DNA of 64,000 nucleotides from the NCBI GenBank assembly GCA_037042185.1, contig JAXQJY010000030.1, forward strand, positions 1,302,001-1,366,000. The letters are read 5' to 3'. This stretch comes from Sordariomycetes sp. S80-01Y (Eukaryota > Ascomycota > Sordariomycetes). Shown one piece after another: positions 7,471 to 63,686 of the stretch. The position numbers and the translations under genes were made by a program. A model generated the notes under the pieces. The model ran no database searches and was not told the DNA's origin. It saw nothing but the letters and a program-made list of their open reading frames with translations. How positions within the stretch are numbered: the first letter of the stretch is position 1; each line of letters opens with the position of its first letter.

Positions 7471-8683
7471 CTACTCCACAAGTTTCCGCGGCTTACCGCC
7501 TGCGTGTCTCCGCCTCGGCGCCTCGTCCCTGTCCTTCTGCTTCAACCGCCACTGCCACTCCAACAACACCCAGACGAAATGATGCAGATCAAAGTCTGGC
7601 CACAAGCAATCCAAGAAGAAGATCTGGGTATCTTGATGACATTGCCAAAGCATGAAATCGCTCAAACGCTCGACACCGCTAGTGCGCACAAAGAGGTCGA
7701 GGGGCGGGTCTTCGGAAGTATACATGTGTCGTTCAAGGGTGTCAACGGTGATGGTCTCGGGGTTGGGGAGTTGCGAGGCGTCGGAGGGGTCGTCGAGATG
7801 ATGAGGTGGAGAATCGGGCGGGAGGGTGGTGGATGAAGAGGCGCCTTCGTCGCCATCACCTTGACCCTCTACCTCAACAGGCTCGGCTGCTTGAGGTTGC
7901 TTCTCTGGGGACGAGTCGCGAATCGTTGGAAGGGGGCCGTGACCGTTCAGTTGACGAGACAGAATATTCTGTCGTATCCTTGTTTGAGAAAAGGGTGTGT
8001 TCTTGGGAGGCGGAGGGGCGAGAAATTCAGCGACGGTCGACTGGATGGCGGTCGTAATTTCGGCTCTTGATGTGTAAGGGAAGCAGATGTTCAGCACGGC
8101 CCTGTTGTTGTTGTTGTTGTCAGCGGAGATCGCTCATGCAGAAGAGATGAATATCACTTTTTGTTGTTCCTCGTCCTTCCGACAGCCTTGTCGACGACTT
8201 CAAGAACATCCTGTCGGATCATCTCCCTCTGGCCGATGACCCGAACAGCAGCGCCATACCGGTCCAACACGTCGCCATACGTGGTAAGCTGCTCGAGTTT
8301 CACCTTGGCAAGCTGCATAAGCCCCTCAACTTCGTACTTCGGTCGGTTGAAGTTCTCGATGCTAAACGCGTAAACGGTAACGGTCTTTACGCCCGCCTTG
8401 TAGCAGATCTCCATAATCTAGGACCGTCAGCTTGTAGGTTGCTGTGGGCTTCTGAGCAACATACCCTTGCTAAAGCCTCGAAACCACGGTGGTGGCCTTC
8501 TACCGTTTCCATGCGATGACTTCGCGCGTACCGCCTGTTTCCATCCATCTCAAAGGCCACATGTTGCGGCACAGGCCCCTGTTGGAGAGCGCCGATGAGC
8601 AGCTCCCTCAGCTGTTTGATAGCCCATTCTCCGGGAGGCGATTCGAAGAGGAATTTCTTCACTAAAGCCCCAATGTCGTTCAT
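7471..8683 (-). CDS. RER2: cis-prenyltransferase (dehydrodolichyl diphosphate synthase)
   Basis: Three exons, 8683..8465, 8417..8158 and 8101..7471, give 369 aa. The enzyme condenses isopentenyl diphosphate onto farnesyl diphosphate to make the long polyprenyl diphosphate used for dolichol and N-glycosylation at the ER. Family signatures are all present: HVAFEMDGNRRYA (catalytic Asp47), the YAFSIENFNRP block, NICFPYTSRAEI rebuilt across the second splice, and RTSGVERLSDFMLWQ (about residue 299). There is an extra acidic/proline-rich stretch of about 60 residues between TSRAEI and ERHMYT that yeast Rer2 lacks. The acceptor of intron 2 lies inside a CAA microsatellite. Rer2 versus Srt1 orthology cannot be settled by eye. 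Confidence 0.92.
8103..8120. repeat. (TTG)n microsatellite at a 3' splice site
   Basis: Six TTG units (CAA on the coding strand) run right up to the acceptor of intron 2 of the cis-prenyltransferase gene, taking the place of the usual pyrimidine-rich tract. Confidence 0.9.
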
Positions 8684-10375
8684 GTTCTGCGAATTGGTGG
8701 TTTGGGGAGGTTCGTGGCTCGATTTTCGAGATTACGCGGCTGGCCAAGAGAATGCGCTAGGAAGGCAATTGTCGGGTAGTGTCTGTCAGGAATTATGTCG
8801 TAGTCTTCAACAAACGAATGTCTGGGGGAACGAGCGTTAAGAATATAGTTAACTTCGGTACATTCAGATGTGACGAATGACGGGTTCTGCCACGAATGTG
8901 TAGTGGCGGAGTGGGAGGCCAGCTGGACAGAGCGAGGCTGATGACGACGAGTTCGTTTCTGGATTTGGTGCTGAAAGTCCAGGTCAAGAGGTCAGTTTCC
9001 AACTGTTGGAGCTCCGATCTTACGGCGTGTGGACACAGCGCAGGGGTTCATGTGTGGCGCCAATCACTGCCTTTCCTCAGCCACGCCATGGTGATGCTGT
9101 AGTGGCGCTGGTAGGCACCCATAGCGCCACCAAGGGTCGCAAGCACTTGATCATAGAAAGCGTAAATTGATTGTATGCGGACTCATCTCGATTCGGGAAT
9201 TACTTGCGCCTGGATTCAAAGATACCTCCCACGAAGAGCGCGAGGGCTGAGGTAAGGTTGAGCCAAGGTACACAGTTTGGATGTGGCTAAGTGTGGCTTG
9301 ACTCGACATGTCTAAATTGGGAGATGAATCACGAAGCTGGGGCAGTGTCGATCCGACAGTCGCCTTGGATGGAAATCGAGCCTTGCATGTCTCAAACTCG
9401 CGATTTGCACGTCGCCAATACTGGCCAGAACAGGCCTCTCAGAGTAAGGAAGGAGCCTAGGAGCTCTACCCGGAACTGGGGAGACGTAAACAGGTTGTAG
9501 TTTGAAGAACAGCCAGGCCGCTCCGACCAGGTGCTGCTGAGAGAAGGGTCTACTCGGCTTTGCATGGATGGCCTGACAACCCAGAAGCCGTCCACCATCG
9601 GCCATACTCTGGACACTTAAATTGGATAGGTTCAACAACAAACGTGAGAGCATCTTCACCATGGCCACAACATATCGAAAAGTCGACGAGTTTGGTTGTG
9701 AAACCGACATCTTTCAGGCACGTCAGGTTTGGGATTGGTCCAGAACCTTATCGCGCAGGGGCCGACGTCATTACGCTGAATGGTCCAGGACGAACCGCTC
9801 CGGCTCGAGCCCGGCGGCGCTTCGGCCTTGGGCATGGTGCACTGCAAACGCTACTCGCAGTGGCCCATGAGTTGTGCTTCCAGTCTTTGTAGCGGTGTAT
9901 AATTCTCTCTCAGCGCTAAATGGGAAACATTCGACGTGTTTTTCGCCATGGAATGCTAAAAGCCCGGTGCCAGATGCCATACGAAAGGGCCGAGTGATAA
10001 AGATGGTGTAGTGGGGTTCCGGCCTGAGGTGAGGGTGAGGTTTTCGCGAGCGATGATCCCCCGCCTCCCTATCGATTTGAGCATCAGCAGCAAATACGGG
10101 CCTCGAAATGCCATGAATCGTCGATGGGCGGCAGCTCGAAAACCTTGCTCTGTTCCAGGCAACCAATCGGCCACCGCCTTCTCCTGATTGCGTGTGTGAT
10201 TGTGACCCTCCTTGTAGAGACATATCTTTAGGTTCTGTAGTAACGGCGGCACGAGCGTCAGAAGCTCCCGCCCCTCCATGTGATCGCGACTTCCCTCACT
10301 GCCAATCTTGTCCTCCTGCTTCCCACACCATCTGACCCTTTCCTTTCACGCTTCAAAGACGCATTTGAGATCGCC
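8684..10375. other. divergent intergenic region, 1.7 kb
   Basis: This lies between the divergent cis-prenyltransferase and GH63-like genes and should hold both promoters. Open frames of up to 150 codons occur on both strands but overlap one another and show no recognised domain. The frame of the GH63-like gene is open upstream to an ATG at 10280, but the ATG at 10376 (GCCATGG context) starts the conserved part. Confidence 0.5.
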
Positions 10376-13300
10376 ATGGTTGTCTTTGACGGACACGAGT
10401 ACCTCACCGAGGAGGAGAGACGCCTTAAGGAGGATCGCGATCGTGTCAAGTACTGGAAGAAATGGGGGCCCTACGTTGCTGAGCGCCAGTGGGCAACAGG
10501 CGAGTTCGGAGATCGATCATGGCTGAGGAGCTTATTTGCTAACAATATTTCAGTGCGAGAGGATTACAGCCCCGACGGTGATGCCTGGAGCCGTACGTAC
10601 TCTACGATTTTACTGACGCACGCCCATCTGACCATACCGCAGATTTCCCGCACGAGCATGCGCGCTCCCGAGCTTTTAGATGGGGTGAAGATGGTATCTC
10701 TGGTGTTTCCGACACTCATGGATACCAGAACGTGGCCTTCAGTTTTTGGAACGAAGAAGAGTACGATCCCCAACAGATTCGACCCCGTCATGGAAGCTGG
10801 CGGCAGACAGCTGATCTGGTGTAGTGCCTACCTTAAGGAGCGTCTATTTGGTCTCTCCAACCCCCAGGGAAATCATGGAGAGAGCGTGAAAGAAGCTCAT
10901 TTCCATGTTGACAACACTCCTGTAAGCTGAGCCTGACCGCCCATGGTGGCCTGATACTAACAGCCCTTCAGACCGTAAGCCAGCATCAGCCGAGCCTCGA
11001 GACGATCGACTGACCGAACACGCAGCACTCTTATATGAAATTTCTGTACAAGTACCCGCAAAAGAAGTTCCCGTACGAAGATCTCGTCAAAGAGAACGCA
11101 AGGCGATCAAGGGAAGAAAAGGAGTATCAAATCACCGACACAGACGCATTCGACGAGAACCGATATTGGGACATCTACATCGAGACGGCGAAGGAGTCCG
11201 ATGACCCCGAAGAGCTTCTCTTCCGGGTAACAGCGTGGAACAGGGGGCCTGATCCAGCACCGTTACACATTGTCCCCCATGTGTGGTTTCGCAACACCTG
11301 GAGCTGGGGTAGAGAGCCCGAGGACAAGAAGCCCTCTATTTCGAGGCACGATGAAGCCTCGGCCAAGTCGAAACATTGGTACCTGGGTGACCGGTATTTC
11401 CACTGCTCGCCATCTCCTGGTGTGGGATCGAGCGGAGACGACGTCATGCCAAAGATGATGTTCACCGAGAACGACACCAACTTCAAAGCCCTCTACGACC
11501 AGAAAAACAGCCAGCCTTACGTCAAGGATGCTTTCCACCGGCACATCGTGGACAATGAAAAGGGCGCTATCAACCCTGCCGAAACCGGCACCAAGTCTGC
11601 GGCTTGGTTCAATTTCAATGAAGATGGCGGCGTAAATCCCGGAGAATGCGCAGGTGAGTTAAAACGATACCCGAAGATGTTAATGTGAGACTTACGGGAA
11701 TAGTTGTGCGTTTCCGCTTCTCCAAGAAGGACCAGACATACGTCGATGAAGAGGTGTTTGACGAGATCATTGACAGACGCAAGGAAGAAGCCGATGAGTT
11801 CTACTATAGACTGAGCCCTCTGCCGATGTCAGATGATGTCCGAAATATTCAAAGACAAGCCTTCTCAGGTATGATGTGGACAAAACAGCATTACTACTTC
11901 ATCTGGGATCAGTGGGCCAATGGAGACCCCTCGATGCCTCCGCCCCCTGAGAGCCGCAAAGCTGTTCGGAATTCGCAGTGGAAGCATCTTCACTGCGATG
12001 ATATCTTGTCAATGCCGGACTCGTGGGAGTACCCCTTCTTTGCAGCATGGGACAGCGCGTTCCACTGTATCCCATTGGCGATGATGGATCCTGACTTCGC
12101 GAAGAAGCAGCTCGACTTGTTCACTCGAGAGTGGTACCTACATCCAAACGGGCAGCTCCCGGCGTACGAATGGAACTACGGAGATGTCAACCCCCCGGTC
12201 CATGCCTGGGCTACTTTCAGGACGTTCAAGATCGAGAGAAAAATGTACGGGCGTCAAGATATCGACTTCTTAGAGCGCGTCTTTCAAAAGCTCCTGTTGA
12301 ACTTCACTTGGTGGGTGAACCGCAAAGATGCGGATGGAAAAAACGTGTTTGAGGGTGGTTTCCTAGGCTTGGACAACATTGGTCTGTTCAACCGCTCGGA
12401 ACCTCTGCCTACTGGTGGTGTACTCGAGCAAGCCGACAGCACAGGCTGGATGGCTTTCTACTGTCTGTCGATGTTGAATATTGCGCTCGAATTGGCGAAG
12501 CACCGGAGAACATACGAGGACATTGCATCCAAGTTCTTCGAGCACTTCATTTTCATCAGCGATGCCATGACCTTCCGCATGGGTTCCAAGGACGAGGCGT
12601 CTCTGTGGAATGAGGACGATGGCTTCTACTACGATGCCATTTCTTGGGGCGGTCCCTGGATTCAGCAGCTGCCTGTAAGGTCACTGGTTGGTCTGATTCC
12701 TCTCTACGCCACGGCTACGCTCGAGCCTGAGCTCATTAACAAATTGCCTTCCTTCAAGAAGCGGGTTGAATGGTTTGTTCAGAACCGTTGCGACCTGGCT
12801 GAGCGCAACATGGCCAGTATCAGAAAACGAGGCAAAGGCGACCGTATCTTGCTTTCCATTGTCAGCAAGGACAGGCTGGAGAAGATCCTCAAGAGAATGT
12901 TGGACGAAGATGAATTCTTCAGCGACCATGGTATCCGATCTCTATCCAAGTATCACAAGGAGAATCCCTTCTCAATGGAGGTCAACGGGCAGAAGTTCGA
13001 AGTCGGATACGTTCCCGGAGACTCCAACAGCGGCCTCTTCGGTGGCAACAGCAATTGGCGTGGACCTATCTGGCTTTGCGTCAACTTCCTTCTGATTGAG
13101 TCTCTGCAACGATTCTTCTTGTTTTATGGACCCGACTTCCAGGTCGAATGTCCCACTGGCAGCGGCGACTATATGCATCTGGGCAAGGTTTCAGAGATGA
13201 TCCAGCATCGCCTCCAGCACCTGTTTGTGAGAAATGAGGAGGGTCGCCGAAGTATCAATAACGGCGACGACATGCTGGACTTTGATGAACACTGGAAGGA

Positions 13301-13817
13301 CAATCTTTGGTTCCACGAGTTTTTCGATGGTGACACTGGCCGGGGCCTCGGCTCTACTCACCAATGCGGCTGGACTGGTCTCATTGCTCGTCTCATTCAC
13401 GACACTGGGTAAGTTTTCTGATCACAATAAGGGATTCCTGTAAGCTAACTCTGTAGGTTCACCTGTCGTCTTCCCCAGACGCCACGAACCCCGTCAGTGG
13501 CCATGTCCCACTACTTCGACGACGTCCTGCATCGCAACACCAAAGAAGGCGCCAGGCGCCACATTCGTCGCTCCTCCACTGCTCGATCCATTGGAGCACG
13601 TAGCGACTTTGACAATTCCTTGAACGGAGATGACGACGCTCGCTCTACTCACACTGGCTACATCTTCCCAGCGGATGACCCCGAGCGACTTAAGCAGAAG
13701 GAGGAGGCAGACTCACACATGCACCGTTATATCTCTGACCAGCTCAACCGCTACCAGGGCCAGGATGGAAACAATGGATATGACAGGGACGCAGAAGAGT
13801 ATGAGACTAAGGCGTGA
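10376..13817 (+). CDS. GH63-like glycoside hydrolase (YMR196W family)
   Basis: Eight exons: 10376..10499, 10554..10592, 10643..10760, 10825..10921, 10972..10974, 11026..11653, 11704..13408 and 13457..13817. Together they give 1024 aa, close to yeast YMR196W (about 1,090). No signal peptide is visible, so it is probably cytosolic. Conserved blocks include ERQWATVREDYS, HARSRAFRWGEDG, KERLFGLSNPQGNHGE and TPTHSYMKFLYKYP. Also present are AAWDSAFHCIPLAM (Asp likely the general acid), PAYEWNYGDVNPPVHAWA and FFDGDTGRGLGSTHQCGW. Relatives in bacteria include mannosylglycerate/glucosylglycerate hydrolases; the natural substrate in fungi is not established. Intron 1 is GC-AG, and exon 5 is only the codon ACC (Thr). 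The start was chosen at 10376 for its Kozak context; 10280 is an in-frame alternative. The last 110 residues are polar and poorly conserved. Confidence 0.9.
10500..10553 (+). other. GC-AG intron, 54 nt and stop-free
   Basis: Intron 1 of the GH63-like gene begins GCGAGT after an ACAG exon end, has a GCTAAC branch point and ends TTTCAG. Removing it gives the family block QWATVREDYS. Its length is a multiple of three with no stop, so retention would insert 18 residues without breaking the frame. Confidence 0.85.
10972..10974 (+). other. 3-nt microexon (ACC, Thr)
   Basis: A 50-nt intron ends CCCTTCAG at 10971 (perfect TACTAAC branch at 10954-10960). A 51-nt intron with a GTAAGC donor starts at 10975 and ends ACGCAG at 11025. 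The three bases between them supply the Thr of the conserved PTHSY block. Confidence 0.75.
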
Positions 13818-17280: not shown

Positions 17281-19025
17281 CTACCACCTCCCTCCTCGTC
17301 CACGACCTCTGCCGCCACCTCTTCCGCGCCCATCCCGTCCACCCCGACCTCTGCCACCGCCTCTGCCCCCTCCACGTCCGCCACGGAAATCCGACTCAGC
17401 GGGACCCTTTGCTCTCCTCTGGCCCCGCTCCTCAGCACTGGCGTCCCAGATGTTCTTTATTCCCAGAAGCTCACAATATATCGCCGTCTGCGGGTTGGTG
17501 TACTCTTCCGGCTGATCTCTAGTTGTCTCTGGTGCTCCTGGTTCGTGAATGGGTGCGGTGATCTCAAAGTTATAAGGGACATCTAGCTTTCCCTTTGCCA
17601 CAATGTTCTCTTCCACCCACATTCTCTCAGCCTCGATCAGAGGCAGATAGTGCTCTTCGCCCTTGTCGGGCGATAGTGTGGCTCCCTCACCGACTTGGAC
17701 TTCTGGGTGGAAGACGCGGTTGATAGCGAGCCACTCTGGGTCGTACTGCAATTTGAAGCGTGGGCCGGCGGCATCAGGGGGGTGTTTCTTGAGCTCTTCG
17801 GGGTCGTAAGGCAGAATGTCGCAGAGCTGGAGGAAGTGACGCCCTGGCTGGCACTTGTCCAAGGCCAGGAAACGAACCTCCTTGTTGATGATCGTTTCGG
17901 GAATCGGTTGGCCTGGTGTGCCCTTCGGCTTAGGCTGAGGTCGAGCAAAGGCGGCTGGCAGCTGTGCACGAAGGGCTTCCGACACCTCATTGGTCGCCTC
18001 TTGAGCTTTATTAGCCACGGAATCACCATTGCTTGTTTCCTTAACCGGGTCTGCTGGTGGCTCGTCGTCGTCGTCCATATCTAGGTCGATCTCGTCCGGG
18101 TTGGCCTCCTTAACGGCTGGCTGGTCGGATGGTGTTGCTTCGGCAACATCCTCGACGTTCTTTGGCGCCTTTCCATCTTCATGCCCGTACTTCCTCAGCG
18201 CTGGGAATTTGACGTGCATGTGCGCCGAGAACCAATACGGCGGCCTCAACCTGTCCATCACGTACGTGGCTGCCACATTACCCAGTGTGCCCTCGTCACT
18301 CTCTCGCCTTAAAAATCCCTTCTTGCTCAGTAGTTGCTCCCTGTTTCCGTGGAACTCGATTTCCCTCGGCCAGTCATGGCTCAAGCCGACATCGACTTGG
18401 CTCCTGACCTGTAGCAACTTCCTCACGTCAAACTCCCTCACGTGATAGAAACTCCTCTTGTCACCCTGGCTGAATGGCAAACGCTCGTGATGAGGCGTTT
18501 GGTAGTCTGCGCCCTTCCATATGCCACTGAGACCCGCAATGCGGATTGGCCCCATGCGAAGGACGTTGGCGGCGCCCATGTAGTAGATGTTTGGGGCCAC
18601 CCAGCCGCCATAGTAGAGCTCCCAGAGGTGAGATGATGCCTCGTGATTGCCGCCAATGAAGATGGTCAAGTAAGGGGCGACGGCGCCACCCGAGTAGTAT
18701 TTATGGAAGTCACCTATCTTACGATACTTGTCTGGGACAGCCATGACAGATAGGTCTGCCGCATTGCGGACAGCCTACCCCGTTAGCCCCTTCACCTAAT
18801 CCAGCGCATGTTTATAACTTACCTGAAAGTCACCGCCAATAATGAGGAGGTCTACACCGTCCCAGCCTCGGACTTCAGCTGATTTGGCGACGGACGCGTA
18901 GATGGCGTCAAGCGTTCCATGACCCTCCTATCATCAGCGCAATTACCGAAACAGGGGAACTAGGAACCTACACAGCCTTCTACAGCGACCCTGACACCCT
19001 CGTTTTCGAAGGTGTTGGTCGTCAT
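17281..19025 (-). CDS. DBR1: Lariat debranching enzyme
   Basis: Three exons, 19025..18972, 18924..18823 and 18774..17281, give 549 aa. Dbr1 hydrolyses the 2',5' branch of excised intron lariats in the nucleus. It is a metallophosphoesterase and its metal ligands are all visible: VEGCGHGTLDAIYAS, IGGDFQAVRNAADL, FIGGNHEASSHLWELY, GLSHDWP and SAHMHVKFP. The DBR1 C-terminal domain follows (FLALDKCQPGRHFLQL and KLQYDPEWLAI). An acidic insert (about 200-250) and a final 35-residue Arg/Gly-rich tail are present; yeast Dbr1 (405 aa) lacks that tail. Exon 2 has two possible acceptors 3 nt apart (18928 and 18925); the distal one was chosen because it restores GC-x-HG. The first exon codes for only 18 residues. 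Confidence 0.95.
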
Positions 19026-21151: not shown

Positions 21152-22094
21152 ATGGCGTCTTACCAGTATCGCAACTCTTACTACAACAGCCACAGCAGTC
21201 ACGACCAGTCCCGTCGGCAACAAGGCACGAGGGATAGCGAGGGAACAGTCAGCACCGTCAACAGTGCGCACAGCGGGCGCGAATCCGCGGCTACACAAAA
21301 CACGGAGCCACCGACCTACTCCAAGAAGATCGTCGTCGTGGGCGACGGCGGTTGTGGCAAGACTTGTTTGCTCATCAGCTACAGTCAGGGCTACTTCCCC
21401 GAGGTATGTTATTCACGTACCCCTCTCTAGACAAACATTGTACTGATATTCCCAGAAATATGTCCCGACCGTCTTCGAAAACTACATCACCTACCCAGTC
21501 CATCCCCCTACAAATAAGACTGTAGAGCTGGCACTATGGGACACGGCTGGTCAGGAGGAGTATGATCGCTTGCGACCCCTCTCCTACCCCGAGACCGATC
21601 TCATCTTTGTCTGCTTCGCCATTGACTGCCCGAACTCATTAGACAACGTCATTGACAAGGTGAGTTCAGAAGCCCCCGTGCCCCGTGCTCTGCGCTCCGA
21701 GATTCAATTAACTAACCCTTCCCAGTGGTACCCCGAAGTCCTCCACTTCTGCCCATACACGCCCCTTATTCTCGTCGGTCTCAAGTCAGATCTCCGCTAC
21801 AAGCGTACCTGCATCGACATGCTCAAGACCCAGGGTCTCACCCCTGTCACTACCGAGCAGGGTATGAATGTGGCCAAAAAGATGAACGCCCAATACATGG
21901 AATGCAGCAGCAAAGAGATGACGGGAGTCGACGAGATCTTTGAGCGCGCCATCCTCACGGTCGTTGCTAACGACCGCAAGACCCTGGAGGTCTCTTCGGC
22001 CGGTCCATCCTCGCAGAGCGCCGCTGCTGGCAGGACGTCGATGCCTGGCGTGGGGGTGCCTAAGAGGAAGAAGAGAAAGTGTCAATTTCTTTGA
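21152..22094 (+). CDS. RHO4: Rho GTPase Rho4
   Basis: Three exons, 21152..21403, 21456..21659 and 21726..22094, give 274 aa. Rho4 directs septum formation and formin/actin-ring assembly in filamentous fungi. G motifs are complete: P-loop GDGGCGKT, switch [10 protein letters not shown], switch [20 protein letters not shown] for guanine recognition, and ECSSKEM. The extra N-terminal extension of about 65 residues and the Gly-Gly P-loop are typical of Rho4 rather than Rho1-3 or Cdc42. The tail has a polybasic run KRKKRK followed by the CAAX box CQFL, whose final Leu suggests geranylgeranylation. The start at 21152 was chosen by family resemblance ([11 protein letters not shown]); an in-frame ATG at 20978 would add 58 residues. 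Confidence 0.95.
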
Positions 22095-34234: not shown

Positions 34235-35323
34235 GTTAAGCTGTGCTGGATAGCAAAACAGTCTGTGAATAGGAAACCGGCGATCACAGCCTGAAAGGGG
34301 TATGAAGAAGAGCAAAGAGGGCGATATGATGCTTTAGAGTGAAGAGATAAAAGACCTCTGGAGGTATTGTGCGGCTGTGGGCAAGTATTGTAACTCTCGG
34401 AAGGGAGTGATGCTGATGTGGAAAGGATGGAAGAGATGTAAGAGGAGAACCATACCAGTAAAGCGGTGTTGCCTTGATATACCCCCTCGGAAACTGAGTT
34501 CTCGAAATACTATAGTTCTAAGTTCATGCACAGTGACCTAAGTTTGCGAGAATAGGCGTTTTCAAGAAGTTTAACCTGGAGTTTGGGAGAAGCATCCGCA
34601 CGGGTGCACAGCGACGAAGTCAGATGAAGCAATACACACATGGATCTGGGGTAATAGTTCGCCCAGACGCTAGAAAATCCACCGTTAGAGAGTTTTGGCA
34701 TCGGAGCGTATAGAGTCTTCGGTGGCGTATAAAGCTAAGTCACGTCGACGGGCCAAGTCGCCTATTGTCAAAGGCAGACTGGCGAAACTCCCTTGACATA
34801 CCGTGCGGTGGGAGAGATTGACTTTGATCACCAACGCCCAAAAACGACAGGTCTTTAGGGCTTCCAAACTCCATGCCAAAGATTTACTGTTTTTTGTAGT
34901 CCGTTTTTACGGGATATTGAGAGGGCAGGGCAGTGAACTGGTTCATGGTTCACCGTGGTTACGATTCCAAGTGCAAAAAAAAGGGGGGGTTGGCTCAGAA
35001 AAAAGGTTTCTCGATGCTACTGCAGGTGACCACCATCGGCGAAGTACCACGTGGAAAGATAAGGTTCGATGCAGCATTAAATGAAGCTTCTTCTAGTCGG
35101 AATTGGCCACATCGATGCACTATCACCACTATCACATTGGTGCTCTCTTGAATTGACTGCCGATTGTCGGATTTCTAAGACGTATGAAACTTAGACAGCG
35201 ATCACAGGCACTTGAGTTGATCATTGACATCTTGACCCAGGCAATGCATTGACCTTTCGGGTGTTCAGTTTACTCGGTAAGCTTCAATGAGAAGGTCTCG
35301 CAAACGCCTGATGTCCAGTGGAC
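34235..35323. other. intergenic region, 1.1 kb
   Basis: Promoter of the unrecognised gene and 3' flank of the AKR gene. It holds an A-run followed by a G-run at about 34975-34990. No gene seen. Confidence 0.45.
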
Positions 35324-36320
35324 TCAAGGTTCCCCAATCATTCCTTTGAATTCAAGGAGAGCCTGTCCCCACTCATCCTTGCCCTCTCCTTCGGCCCAGA
35401 CTCCAACCTTTTCTATGCCTTCCAGATCCTCCGTCATATGATCCGCATCGCTCGTCCCATCGAGTACCGTCACACCCTCGAGTCCCAAAACCAAGCAATA
35501 ATAAGCAGAAACAGGCTGAACACCCGCCCCTCGGGCCACCCCCGCAACGGCCTGACTCCTCGCAAGCCTCGGGTTGGCAGTCAGGGTCCAGAAGCTCTGG
35601 AAGATAATCCCGTTCTCCTTGCAAAACGCACGAAGATCGGTTTCGTAGCCTGTTTCGGCGTGGAAACGGTTTTGGACGAATGTTGGCTTGACGCCAGCGT
35701 TTCGGCACAGTTCCTTGAGGATGGGCAGGGTGACGTTGGAGATTCCCAGGTTGCGGACGGCGTCAGGGTGGTATGAGCTCATGACGCTCCATGCCTCGAG
35801 GGTTTCCTGCATGGTACGAAGAGGCGAGTGCATGACTAGGCTGTCTATGTACTGTCCCTTCGAAGCAGCTGGAAGCAAGTTTGTGAAAGAGGATTCGACC
35901 GACATGTGTACCTTGTCTTTGAGAGGAGCGGCAAGGGTGTAGGGCATGTTATCATTTTGACCTGCTGGCGAAGTGAACTTGGTCTGGATCTGAATTTTTG
36001 GCGTCAACACTGATTCTGCCACCGCAGCATGGTAGGTGAGAGCTTACGAAGAGATCTTCTCTGCTGATGATACCCTCGGTGAGAGCTCGTCTGATGCCAT
36101 TTCCTACGCCGCGCTCATCATAGTGCTTGGGCTGGGCGGCCGTGTCAATGCCCCTGAACCCTTTCTTGATGGCCGTGTAGACGAGTTCATCGGTCTTCTC
36201 CTTCTTCCACGCTGTACCGTAGATCAGTTTTGGGATGGTGGTCTTAGCGCCCGTGGAGGAGGTGACGGTGATATCGCGAGCGAGACGAGATGCCTGTGCT
36301 CCGATGGTCGGCTGGGCCAT
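35324..36320 (-). CDS. aldo-keto reductase
   Basis: Two exons, 36320..36048 and 35989..35324 (58-nt intron, GTAAGC donor, AATTCAG acceptor), give 312 aa. The protein is an NADPH-type (alpha/beta)8-barrel reductase. The catalytic tetrad is recognisable: Asp in FRGIDTAAQPKHYDERGVG, Tyr shortly after it, Lys in IQTKF at the exon junction, and His in LVMHSPL. The motifs NLGISNVTLPIL and FVQNRFHAETGYE are also typical. The substrate cannot be read from sequence. The start MAQPTIGAQ was chosen because in-frame sequence upstream does not resemble the family. It is divergent from XYD1 and shares its promoter, which suggests co-regulation in sugar metabolism. Confidence 0.88.
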
Positions 36321-53883: not shown

Positions 53884-55680
53884 ATGGCGCCTCTGGACCA
53901 TTCGGATCTCTCAGACCGGGGAGTGGCAAACATAAATGTGCCCCTGGGCGGACAAGTGATGAGTGTGGTAATCTCCCTCGCTGCGGTCACGGTCTTGACA
54001 CTCTTTCTCAGTAGGCCCCCTCCGCTTTCATACAGCTCAGCTAGCAGAAACTGACATTTTGAAGCCCAGCGATATCTTGTCGTCTCGGCTTGGAGGCGCC
54101 TACCCTTTGTTGTCTGGCGTGAGTGGACCTATCCTATCCATCTGATGATATGCGAGGCTGGGGGCAGGCTGACGAGGACCAGTGGTCTTTGCAATTTACG
54201 TAGACTCGTACGCCTTCGTCTTCGCAACCAGCATTCTGCAGCATTCGCTGGGCGTCAACTCGAGCTTTCAGCTGTGCGAGAGCGCCATCCTGCTGTGTTT
54301 GGCCTTCTACGTTACGACCAAGGTGAGCCACCCCTGGCCTCAGACCGCTGCGAGTGTGCTAACCGTGGGACAGATTGTATGCGACCCTCCGCAGGCGAAG
54401 TCTTGTAAGAGGTGCTGACGGAGCTTAGTTTATATATCTCTTCCTCGTCGAGAAAGCCGTGAGTCCACCCAAGCCCTGTGAACACATGCCGACTTACGCT
54501 GTCCTAGTACATCATCCGCAGAACTACCAAGCGACGGATGCGTTCCCGCCTCTATCTTTTCAACACCTTTGGAATGCTGAGCATCTACATAGTGGTAGTC
54601 ATATTGAACTTCATGTCGTGCGTCTTTTCCCTATCGAACCCTAGTGTCTGCGGGACTAACATCACCAGGCGTATCACGAAACTGGAGAACGGCCAATGCA
54701 TCATCGGCATGAAGAGCGCTGCTATGATCCCCCTCATATCGTTCGATGCCGTGGTCAACGTCTATCTGACCATCATCTTCTTGATCCCCCTCAAGAGTGA
54801 GCCCAACCTATCACGCACCGCCCTCCTCTATTTCATCACAGGACCACTTCCAACTACATCCCAGCGCGACGCGCAGCAGGAGAAGTAACAGGAGCTGACT
54901 GGAATGCAGACCTGTACTCTTTCAAGAATATGCCTCGAACGCCAGCAAACCTCCGTCTCCGAACCGCGGCGTTTCGAACCTTCGTAGGTGCTGCCTGCAC
55001 CCTGATTAGCAGCGTCGCAAACCTATCCGTCTTGATGGCTCTCAATGGTGAGCCAGGATGGGTGTGTCTGATGTGCTGCAATTGCGACAGCAAGTTCCTC
55101 CATTACCCTCCGCCGGTTCCCTTTCACGGGTGGCGACCTCGTTAGGGACGCTCTGCTGACATGCGCAGTTCTCTTCTCCGCCCTAGTCATACAGTGGGTG
55201 ACATCAAAAGACACCGCCGGCACGTCCTCCATCTCCTCGAACCACCAGCTCGAGCCGCAAGCGCCGCATCAGGGATCCCTGCGAACCTCCGTGTGTCGGA
55301 TCTACTCCAACGACACGGGCCCGGGGTGCGCACCACCCTCGCCCGCCGCGCAGGCCCTCGTCCGACAGCACTGCTCTGATCGTCGAGCCTCGGCCGCCTC
55401 GTCCGACTCCCCACCGCAGCTCGACTCAGCGCTGGCAAAGCCGTTGGGGGGAGGGGTCGTCATCACCACGACCATCAGGCGCGAGAGCAGGCCGAACGAC
55501 GAGAACCTTTGCAGCGCTAGCGACGACGAGGGCTCCTCGGCATACAATGGCGGGGAGGCGGCGGCGGGGTCGATGCGGGGTGGATACAGAGGAAGTAGGA
55601 GGATGAGCGTTGGCCCGTTGGGAGAGGGTTTTATTTTGTCGAGGACGAGGATCACGGGGGGCGGAGGCCACCCTTCGTGA
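53884..55680 (+). CDS. multi-pass (seven-TM type) fungal protein of unknown function
   Basis: Eight exons: 53884..54010, 54065..54118, 54183..54322, 54429..54458, 54508..54617, 54669..54796, 54910..55089 and 55169..55680. They give 426 aa. Hydrophobic segments, as read from the spliced protein, include VVISLAAVTVLTLFL, VVWLVFAIYVDSYAFVFATS, LLCLAFYVTTKFIYLFLVEK, LSIYIVVVILNFM, IPLISFDAVVNVYLTIIFLI, FVGAACTLISSVANLSVLMA and CLMCCNCDILFSALVIQWV. The pattern fits seven spans, followed by a cytosolic tail of about 150 residues rich in Ser, Gly and Pro. I know this as a conserved family in filamentous ascomycetes without an assigned role; a receptor-like role is speculation. Intron 1 needs the AAG acceptor at 54064, and intron 7 is GC-AG. 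All phases agree, which supports the eight-exon model. Confidence 0.85.
55090..55168 (+). other. GC-AG intron of the seven-TM gene
   Basis: Starts GCAAGT after TGCGACA and ends TGCGCAG, joining NCD to ILFSALVIQWV in frame. 79 nt. Confidence 0.85.
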
Positions 55681-62033: not shown

Positions 62034-63686
62034 ATGGACAACATGGACCATATTCACACCATGCAGAACTTTTCTCCGTCGATGCTCACCTATCCTGATC
62101 CAACCGACTTCGACTACAATGCCTTCTTACAGCAATCTGCCGATGACATGGGTTTTGGACACCCTCCTCCAGGACAGATGCCGCTGCCCTCGCCCATTCA
62201 GCCCTCACCAACCGGTGGGCACATGATCCAGGGATTCTCGGACTCGAGTGTTGGGAGAGCCACTCCGCCTGATTCTGACAATCGAAGCAACAGCAATGAT
62301 CTGGTCCGGGCAGGAAGCGCGGCACCGACAGCGGTCACTACTGCGTCTGCGAAGCACAAGCTTGAAAGACGCGGTCATACCAAGAGCAGACGAGGCTGCT
62401 ACAACTGCAAGAGGAGGCGGATCAAGGTATGTCACAGCGGCGGCACCCGTCCCAGGCTTGCTGACAGACCGGCCAGTGCCAAGAGACGCAGCCTGCTTGC
62501 GGTCACTGCGTCAAGACGGGCTTGAAGTGCGAGTACCCTTCGCTTCCCCAGATCACCCACCAGGTAGGCAGGCCGACACTTCTGGCAAGCTTAAGAGTTG
62601 CGCTGATAGTCGTAGCCCCATCACCAGATTCCTCTCTTCAGCCTGCAGGACATGCGCTTCTTCCAGCACTTCCTGACCCACTGCTACCCTCATCATCCTC
62701 TAAAGCAGGAAGAGGTGTGGACGCATGAGGTGCCTTGCATCGCTCATAATGTAAGCACATGCGCAGTGGCATATTCGGATATTTTCTAATATGTATAGCA
62801 CGAGTTCCTCATGCACGCTATACTAGGCTTTGCCGCCTCCGAGCTCATGGCAACCGACTACTCGCTCGTTACCGCCGCCATGAATCATCGTGTCAAAGCG
62901 ATCAAGGCTATCAAGAAACGCCTTGCTGAAGCCTCCAAGTCGGCGACCTCCCACGAGGAAGCGAACGCCCTAGTCGCCACCTGCTTTGCCCTGACGTTCC
63001 AGTCCGTCAGCCTCGATGATGGGCTGGCCGAGTACATGACCTTCATCCGTGGTATCGTCATAGTGGGGATGCAGATGATGTTCAAGGGGATTAAACCCAT
63101 CTTTAGCACCATGTTTGAGGAGCAACAGGATGAGATTCTGGCGCCGTACATGGAGGCTTTACCCCTGATTCGCAAGGGGTGGGCGGATTCGGCATTGGAG
63201 GCCATCACGAACCTGCGGCCGCTGTGTGTTGAGCCAGTCGAAATTGAATACCAAGAGAAGCTGGAAAACATTGTCCAGAAGCTCTACACGAACTCTTGGG
63301 CCGGTAAGACCCCCACTCCTCCGCCTGAAAAAATTCATCTGATAGCAATAGCCTACAAGGCGCATACGCAGCAGTACGCTTGGTGGATGATGCTCCCTCA
63401 CAACGTTTTCCAAGAGCTCATCTCCCCCAACAACCAAGTTGTCATGTTGCTGCACGCACACTGGATCTCCCTCGCCCAGATCATGGTCTTCATCACAGCG
63501 CAGGAGTACGAAGTCCGCGACAAGAAGCCGCCCGAGAACGGCAAGCACATAGACCCAGGCTTTGTGCGTTGGCTGAAGTATCTTAATGCCAGGGTTGACT
63601 ACGAGTATCAGATGTACAATCAGTGGCCGATGTGGGTTGAGCAGCAGTTGGATAGGGACATCAGCTTCTTCGGGAAGAGGCAATGA
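62034..63686 (+). CDS. Zn2Cys6 transcription factor, Upc2-like type
   Basis: Four exons, 62034..62426, 62477..62563, 62628..62750 and 62799..63686, give 496 aa. The binuclear zinc cluster is residues 122-149, Cys-X2-Cys-X6-Cys-X6-Cys-X2-Cys-X6-Cys (CYNCKRRRIK, then CQETQPACGHCVKTGLKCEY), and intron 1 falls just before the third Cys. A basic stretch (KHKLERRGHTKSRRG) precedes it. After DMRFFQHFLTHCYPHHP the protein continues as the helical regulatory domain seen in sterol-uptake-control-type regulators (MHAILGFAASELMATDYSLV, EANALVATCFALTFQSVSLD, MQMMFKGIKPIF). Target genes cannot be told. The start at 62034 is the first in-frame ATG; a second Met follows two codons later. All four exons keep frame. 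Confidence 0.9.

Follow-up and report, generated by a model that had tools for sequence, protein, structure and literature searches.

The question raised by this locus is whether a single codon lying between two closely spaced introns, in a gene on the forward strand of the window (the whole stretch of 64,000 nt that was analysed), is an exon in its own right or part of one longer intron. On the codon grid, ACC (Thr) is a single whole codon between two phase 0 introns of a gene for which we modelled seven exons, six introns of 48-64 nt and a protein of 1042 residues (Table 1). Judging from the splice signals, the reading frame and the retention of the encoded residue in bacterial relatives, we consider it very probable that ACC is a genuine, normally included one-codon exon and that two ordinary short U2-type introns are spliced out sequentially around it, each across the intron.

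Table 1. Coordinates (positions in the window) of the predicted GH63/MGH1-like gene and of the introns flanking a second candidate 3-nt exon
Feature	Coordinates	Strand	Signals and remarks
Exon 1	10376-10592	+	From joined translation; start codon provisional, the long bacterial matches, 16 in all, start within query residues 2-25
Intron 1 (50 nt)	10593-10642	+	GTACGT..CTGAC..GCAG
Exon 2	10643-10760	+	From joined translation
Intron 2 (64 nt)	10761-10824	+	GTACGA..CTGAT..GTAG; frame joins to ..YLKERLFGL..
Exon 3	10825-10921	+	Ends ..DNTP, phase 0
Intron 3 (50 nt), upstream of microexon	10922-10971	+	Donor GTAAGC, branch TACTAAC, 3' end CCTTCAG
Exon 4, candidate 3-nt microexon ACC (Thr)	10972-10974	+	Sole gapless solution of 24; column filled in 68/68
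Intron 4 (51 nt), downstream of microexon	10975-11025	+	Donor GTAAGC, branch CTGAC, 3' end ACGCAG
Exon 5	11026-11653	+	Starts HSYMKFLYKYPQ
Intron 5 (50 nt)	11654-11703	+	GTGAGT..CTTAC..ATAG
Exon 6	11704-13408	+	Carries PF22422 and PF03200 matches
Intron 6 (48 nt)	13409-13456	+	GTAAGT..CTAAC..GTAG
Exon 7 to stop, tentative	13457-13817	+	At or beyond end of bacterial matches
Intron before ATT (51 nt)	54323-54373	+	GTGAGC, CTAAC, ACAG
Intron after ATT (52 nt)	54377-54428	+	GTATGC, CTGAC, TTAG

A first-pass annotation had described the two introns with only ACC between them, and the coordinates, lengths and motifs that it gave were reproduced exactly when the sequence was read again. What lies here is a very short exon candidate between two U2-type introns, each of which possesses a donor, a branch site and an acceptor of its own; the 3 nt are coding and preserve the reading frame of the enzyme family, and retention of either intron leads to an in-frame stop. 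The branch A is located 11 nt from the last intron base in intron 3 and 12 nt in intron 4; in the four other introns of the gene this distance is 8-11 nt when the branch candidate nearest the acceptor is used in each, a range that intron 4 exceeds by 1 nt. The consensus for the exonic bases -3 to -1 of donors is CAG, and the bases CCT (intron 3) and ACC (intron 4) found at the two donors are unlike it, which, as far as sequence consensus can indicate, counts against the 3-nt exon. An origin of introns 3 and 4 as sister copies from a duplication found no support: beyond the splice motifs, their alignment score of 6.5 hardly differs from the 6.2 (sd 3.0) obtained in 2000 shuffles that kept the motifs in place (p 0.48).

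The gene product is predicted to be a GH63/MGH1-like glycoside hydrolase: family profile searches of the predicted protein matched PF22422 (MGH1-like; 79.9 bits, cut-off 27) and PF03200 (GH63; 36.1 bits, cut-off 22.4). A phmmer search against PDB found no family member of solved structure with a close sequence match and returned three weak rows (best E 0.063), among them the GH63 glucosidase 4j5t (E 0.08). The structural setting was approached through an AlphaFold2 model of a bacterial relative, L004, and not of the fungal protein itself (mean pLDDT 73.7, pTM 0.80), whose best PDB match was a Chaetomium glucosidase (E 3e-17, TM 0.49/0.57), with murine glucosidase I and E. coli YgjK also among the best rows and cellobiose phosphorylases and GH116 enzymes of the same broad fold among the weaker ones. 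We take the Chaetomium and murine glucosidases to be GH63 enzymes; the GH63-like fold belongs to the model of this one bacterial relative. No relative came up in a scan of viral contigs.

Conservation of the residue was assessed among bacterial relatives. A scan of prokaryote genomes yielded 17 loci; in 16 the match covers the greater part of the protein, with 44-51% identity in its best segment, and in one (L017) it is only partial. All 16 of these relatives covering the site have the residue (Thr in 13, Ser in 3). It is also present in 16 of 16 members of a longer alignment of relatives, where the 120 columns surrounding the site are interrupted by just one gap in a single row. Two scans contributed to the comparison, one with 19 positive among 398 genomes and all 22 places read, the other with 92 positive among 396 genomes and 30 loci read, 55 plasmid places being left outside the count. 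Altogether 73 loci were compared, 72 of them with a match (the partial relative L017 being the one without), and these were merged to 68 distinct stretches. The column is filled in 68/68 (Thr 47, Ser 19, Val 1, Asp 1), and across these stretches there is no gap in the seven-residue motif, neither in the query nor in any relative, at about 47% to 63% identity to the fungal protein in this region. The earlier statement that Thr is invariant thus has to be amended for the bacterial relatives: Thr itself occurs in 47 of 68 stretches and Thr or Ser in 66, while the residue as such is missing in none. The relatives compared are bacterial and the sample leans to the best matches, which leaves some room for a loss of this one residue in fungi.

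Every GT-AG solution with one or two introns of 40-160 nt was enumerated, its splice sites being confined to 10880-11070. Twenty-four of them are stop-free and in frame, and only the combination of introns 3 and 4 yields the gapless motif NTP-T-HSYMKFLYKYPQ, so that the 3-nt exon proposed at first pass is the sole enumerated solution keeping the conserved, gap-free motif; the solution that comes nearest to it, a single intron of 104 nt, reads NTP-HSY. Another possible acceptor, at 10963, would leave an 11-nt gap to the next donor; it was discarded, as it takes part in none of the 24 solutions. The expectation by chance was estimated with first-order Markov random strands of 64 kb each, which score motifs and spacing alone, without the demand that the codon fit the enzyme family. 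With strict motifs, 60 such strands contained 0 intron pairs separated by 1-12 nt, and the window contained the microexon pair and its variant with acceptor 10963; motif-defined introns numbered 13 on the forward and 5 on the reverse strand of the window (random mean 3.1 per strand). With loose motifs, seven pairs with a gap of 1-15 nt, two of them with a gap of 3 nt, occurred in 100 random strands; the window gave three rows on the forward strand (the microexon pair, the 10963 variant and 54323-54428) and none on the reverse strand, from 36 and 22 motif-defined introns, respectively (random mean 23.3).

The most obvious competing explanation is a single 104-nt intron (10922-11025), in which ACC would be intronic, the inner signals would be unused and the fungal enzyme would lack the residue. 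Such an intron uses the same outer sites and is in frame and stop-free, consistent with the earlier remark that omission of ACC keeps the frame and costs one residue, and automatic gene predictors would probably pick it; the first-pass expectation that such programs omit the exon is in line with what is reported for microexons of plants and Trichoderma. It would be the longest intron of the gene, the others measuring 48-64 nt, but the window may contain other introns above 100 nt (one of about 113 nt at 54797), and length alone is not decisive. What argues against the 104-nt intron is that it deletes a column missing from none of the 68 relatives, and that it leaves unexplained why two complete inner sites lie exactly 3 nt apart, an arrangement that the random strands produced never with strict motifs and only twice per hundred with loose ones; we therefore regard it as highly improbable. 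Still a little less probable, in our estimation, is a regulated cassette, with mRNAs of either kind produced and enzyme activity switched by including the one codon. The frame is kept with and without ACC, and a microexon acting as a switch is reported from a fungus, Trichoderma Xlr2 (PMC11121469, available passages), but the sequence analysis revealed no sign of regulation, and the residue is part of a conserved turn, so that the skipped form would seem broken rather than altered.

This assessment of the skipped form draws on the L004 model, in which T127, at the position of the microexon Thr, is found in a six-residue turn, residues 124-129, that links strands 118-123 and 130-138. The model is moderately confident only: the block 121-130 has a pLDDT of 81, while the two blocks before it (101-120) reach 49 and 54. 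Loss of one residue would probably shift the turn, and given this location in a short inter-strand turn, in-frame skipping, presumably a minor event, would probably harm the enzyme. The same loss would follow if the pair were a stwintron (spliceosomal twin intron), in which one intron is nested in a splice signal of another, removal takes two steps and nothing is kept between them. Two consecutive short fungal introns do resemble the setting in which stwintrons are described (PMC6616335, PMC12403724); here, however, neither intron splits the donor, branch or acceptor of the other and both have complete, separate signals of their own. We thus did not assign the pair to this class, and consider a stwintron exceedingly improbable.

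If ACC is, as we believe, a one-codon exon, the manner of its splicing is constrained by size. An exon of 3 nt is too small for exon recognition, and with 3 nt between acceptor and donor the factors for both sites cannot bind together. Because 3 nt do not offer room both for U1 on the second donor and for the 3'-site factors of intron 3, one intron would have to leave first, and from what is generally known of the size of the spliceosome, each would be removed in turn by intron definition. Intron 3 is most likely the first to leave, as it is transcribed first and has a perfect TACTAAC branch. After its removal, the ligated ..CCT-ACC exon would keep an intact GTAAGC donor for the second step; whichever order is followed, the intron left over would retain complete signals. 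In the mature product the family's NTP-T-HSY turn would be unbroken.

The ACC exon adds to a kind of exon already reported, as 3-nt exons are rare, easily missed and known from fungal lipS genes. In the duplicated lipS genes of Dactylellina haptotyla, likewise a filamentous ascomycete, 3-nt exons occur in a different gene and are mentioned in one sentence, in a passage that includes no RNA test (PMC5639578). According to the passages available, the microexon of Trichoderma Xlr2, also in a filamentous fungus and absent from the gene model, differs from ours in its 20 nt (not a multiple of three), its conditional inclusion and its RNA support (PMC11121469). The P450 genes of Phanerochaete, in the portion of the source at hand, have microexons (2-10 aa) and frequent introns of 45-55 bp, but their shortest exon is 6 bp and the organism is a white rot basidiomycete (PMC1184071). 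Outside fungi, the excerpts describe 1-nt exons in plant APC11 and VPS55, similarly extreme in size and absent from annotations, yet supported by RT-PCR and RNA-seq (PMC4674806, PMC8831610); an animal microexon of exactly 3 nt is, unlike the ACC exon as we see it, alternatively spliced in the passage describing it. A literature search by title found no paper on a 3-nt exon in a GH63-like gene among the matches listed, subscription papers being mostly outside its reach.

The looser motif scan of the window pointed to a second candidate 3-nt exon, ATT (Ile) at 54374-54376 on the forward strand and in phase 0 (flanking introns in Table 1), in a gene at about 53884-55680 on the same strand that is unrelated to the GH63-like gene. 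The join reads CLAFYVTTK-I-FIYLFLVEKA, and hydrophobic segments, as judged by eye, suggest that the product is a multi-pass membrane protein; a 140-residue piece of this protein matched no Pfam family, and a literature search on the membrane-protein motif gave no match. Related fungal proteins presumably have a residue at the ATT position. The first intron, 54323-54373, is a multiple of three and stop-free in frame, and it may be retained instead, or one 106-nt intron may be removed; the ATT candidate is weaker than the ACC exon. In the same gene, an intron of about 113 nt, roughly twice the length of the others seen, seems to be needed at about 54797-54909 (+), and no inner exon was found in it by eye.

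That motif scans alone mislead is shown by a candidate 15-nt microexon at 21389-21403 (+), which proved false on reading: its upstream 'intron' is coding and, by eye, reads the GDGGCGKT loop of a Ras-family GTPase. This gene extends over about 21152-22094 on the forward strand, is identified by the Ras profile and is, we assume, Rho-like. The loosest scan gave 36 rows on the forward strand and nine on the reverse strand; with gaps of up to 15 nt, further rows lay near 11632-11790 (overlapping intron 5), 35182-35328, 35939-36123 and 63304-63438, and one reverse-strand row near 36107-35984. As for other genes in the window, the C-terminal domain of the lariat debranching enzyme DBR1 (PF05011) is encoded at 17284-18774 on the reverse strand, some 3.5 kb past the GH63-like gene, by coincidence a splicing-related neighbour. 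A Fungal_trans_2 domain was matched elsewhere (22.3 bits, cut-off 21) and, together with the short introns, points to a filamentous fungus. A gene at about 7471-8731 on the reverse strand is, from motifs in ORF translations, presumably a cis-prenyltransferase split by introns.

The ACC and ATT candidates lie in unrelated genes, and both comprise 3 nt, are in phase 0 and are flanked by introns of 50-52 nt, a combination to be set against the two 3-nt-gap pairs that arose by chance in 100 random strands. We suggest tentatively that single-codon exons keep recurring in this fungal lineage as a class that annotations miss systematically, although we would rather bet against this than for it. If true, splicing across a single codon would be routine for the spliceosome there, with intron definition proceeding strictly one intron at a time; if the ATT candidate is real, 3-nt exons may be common in the lineage and could be counted genome-wide. 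The ACC exon would in itself mark a class of annotation error, in which predicted proteins silently miss one conserved residue, and, because an exon of this size escapes exon recognition, it would let intron definition and the order of splicing in fungi be tested cleanly in a natural case.
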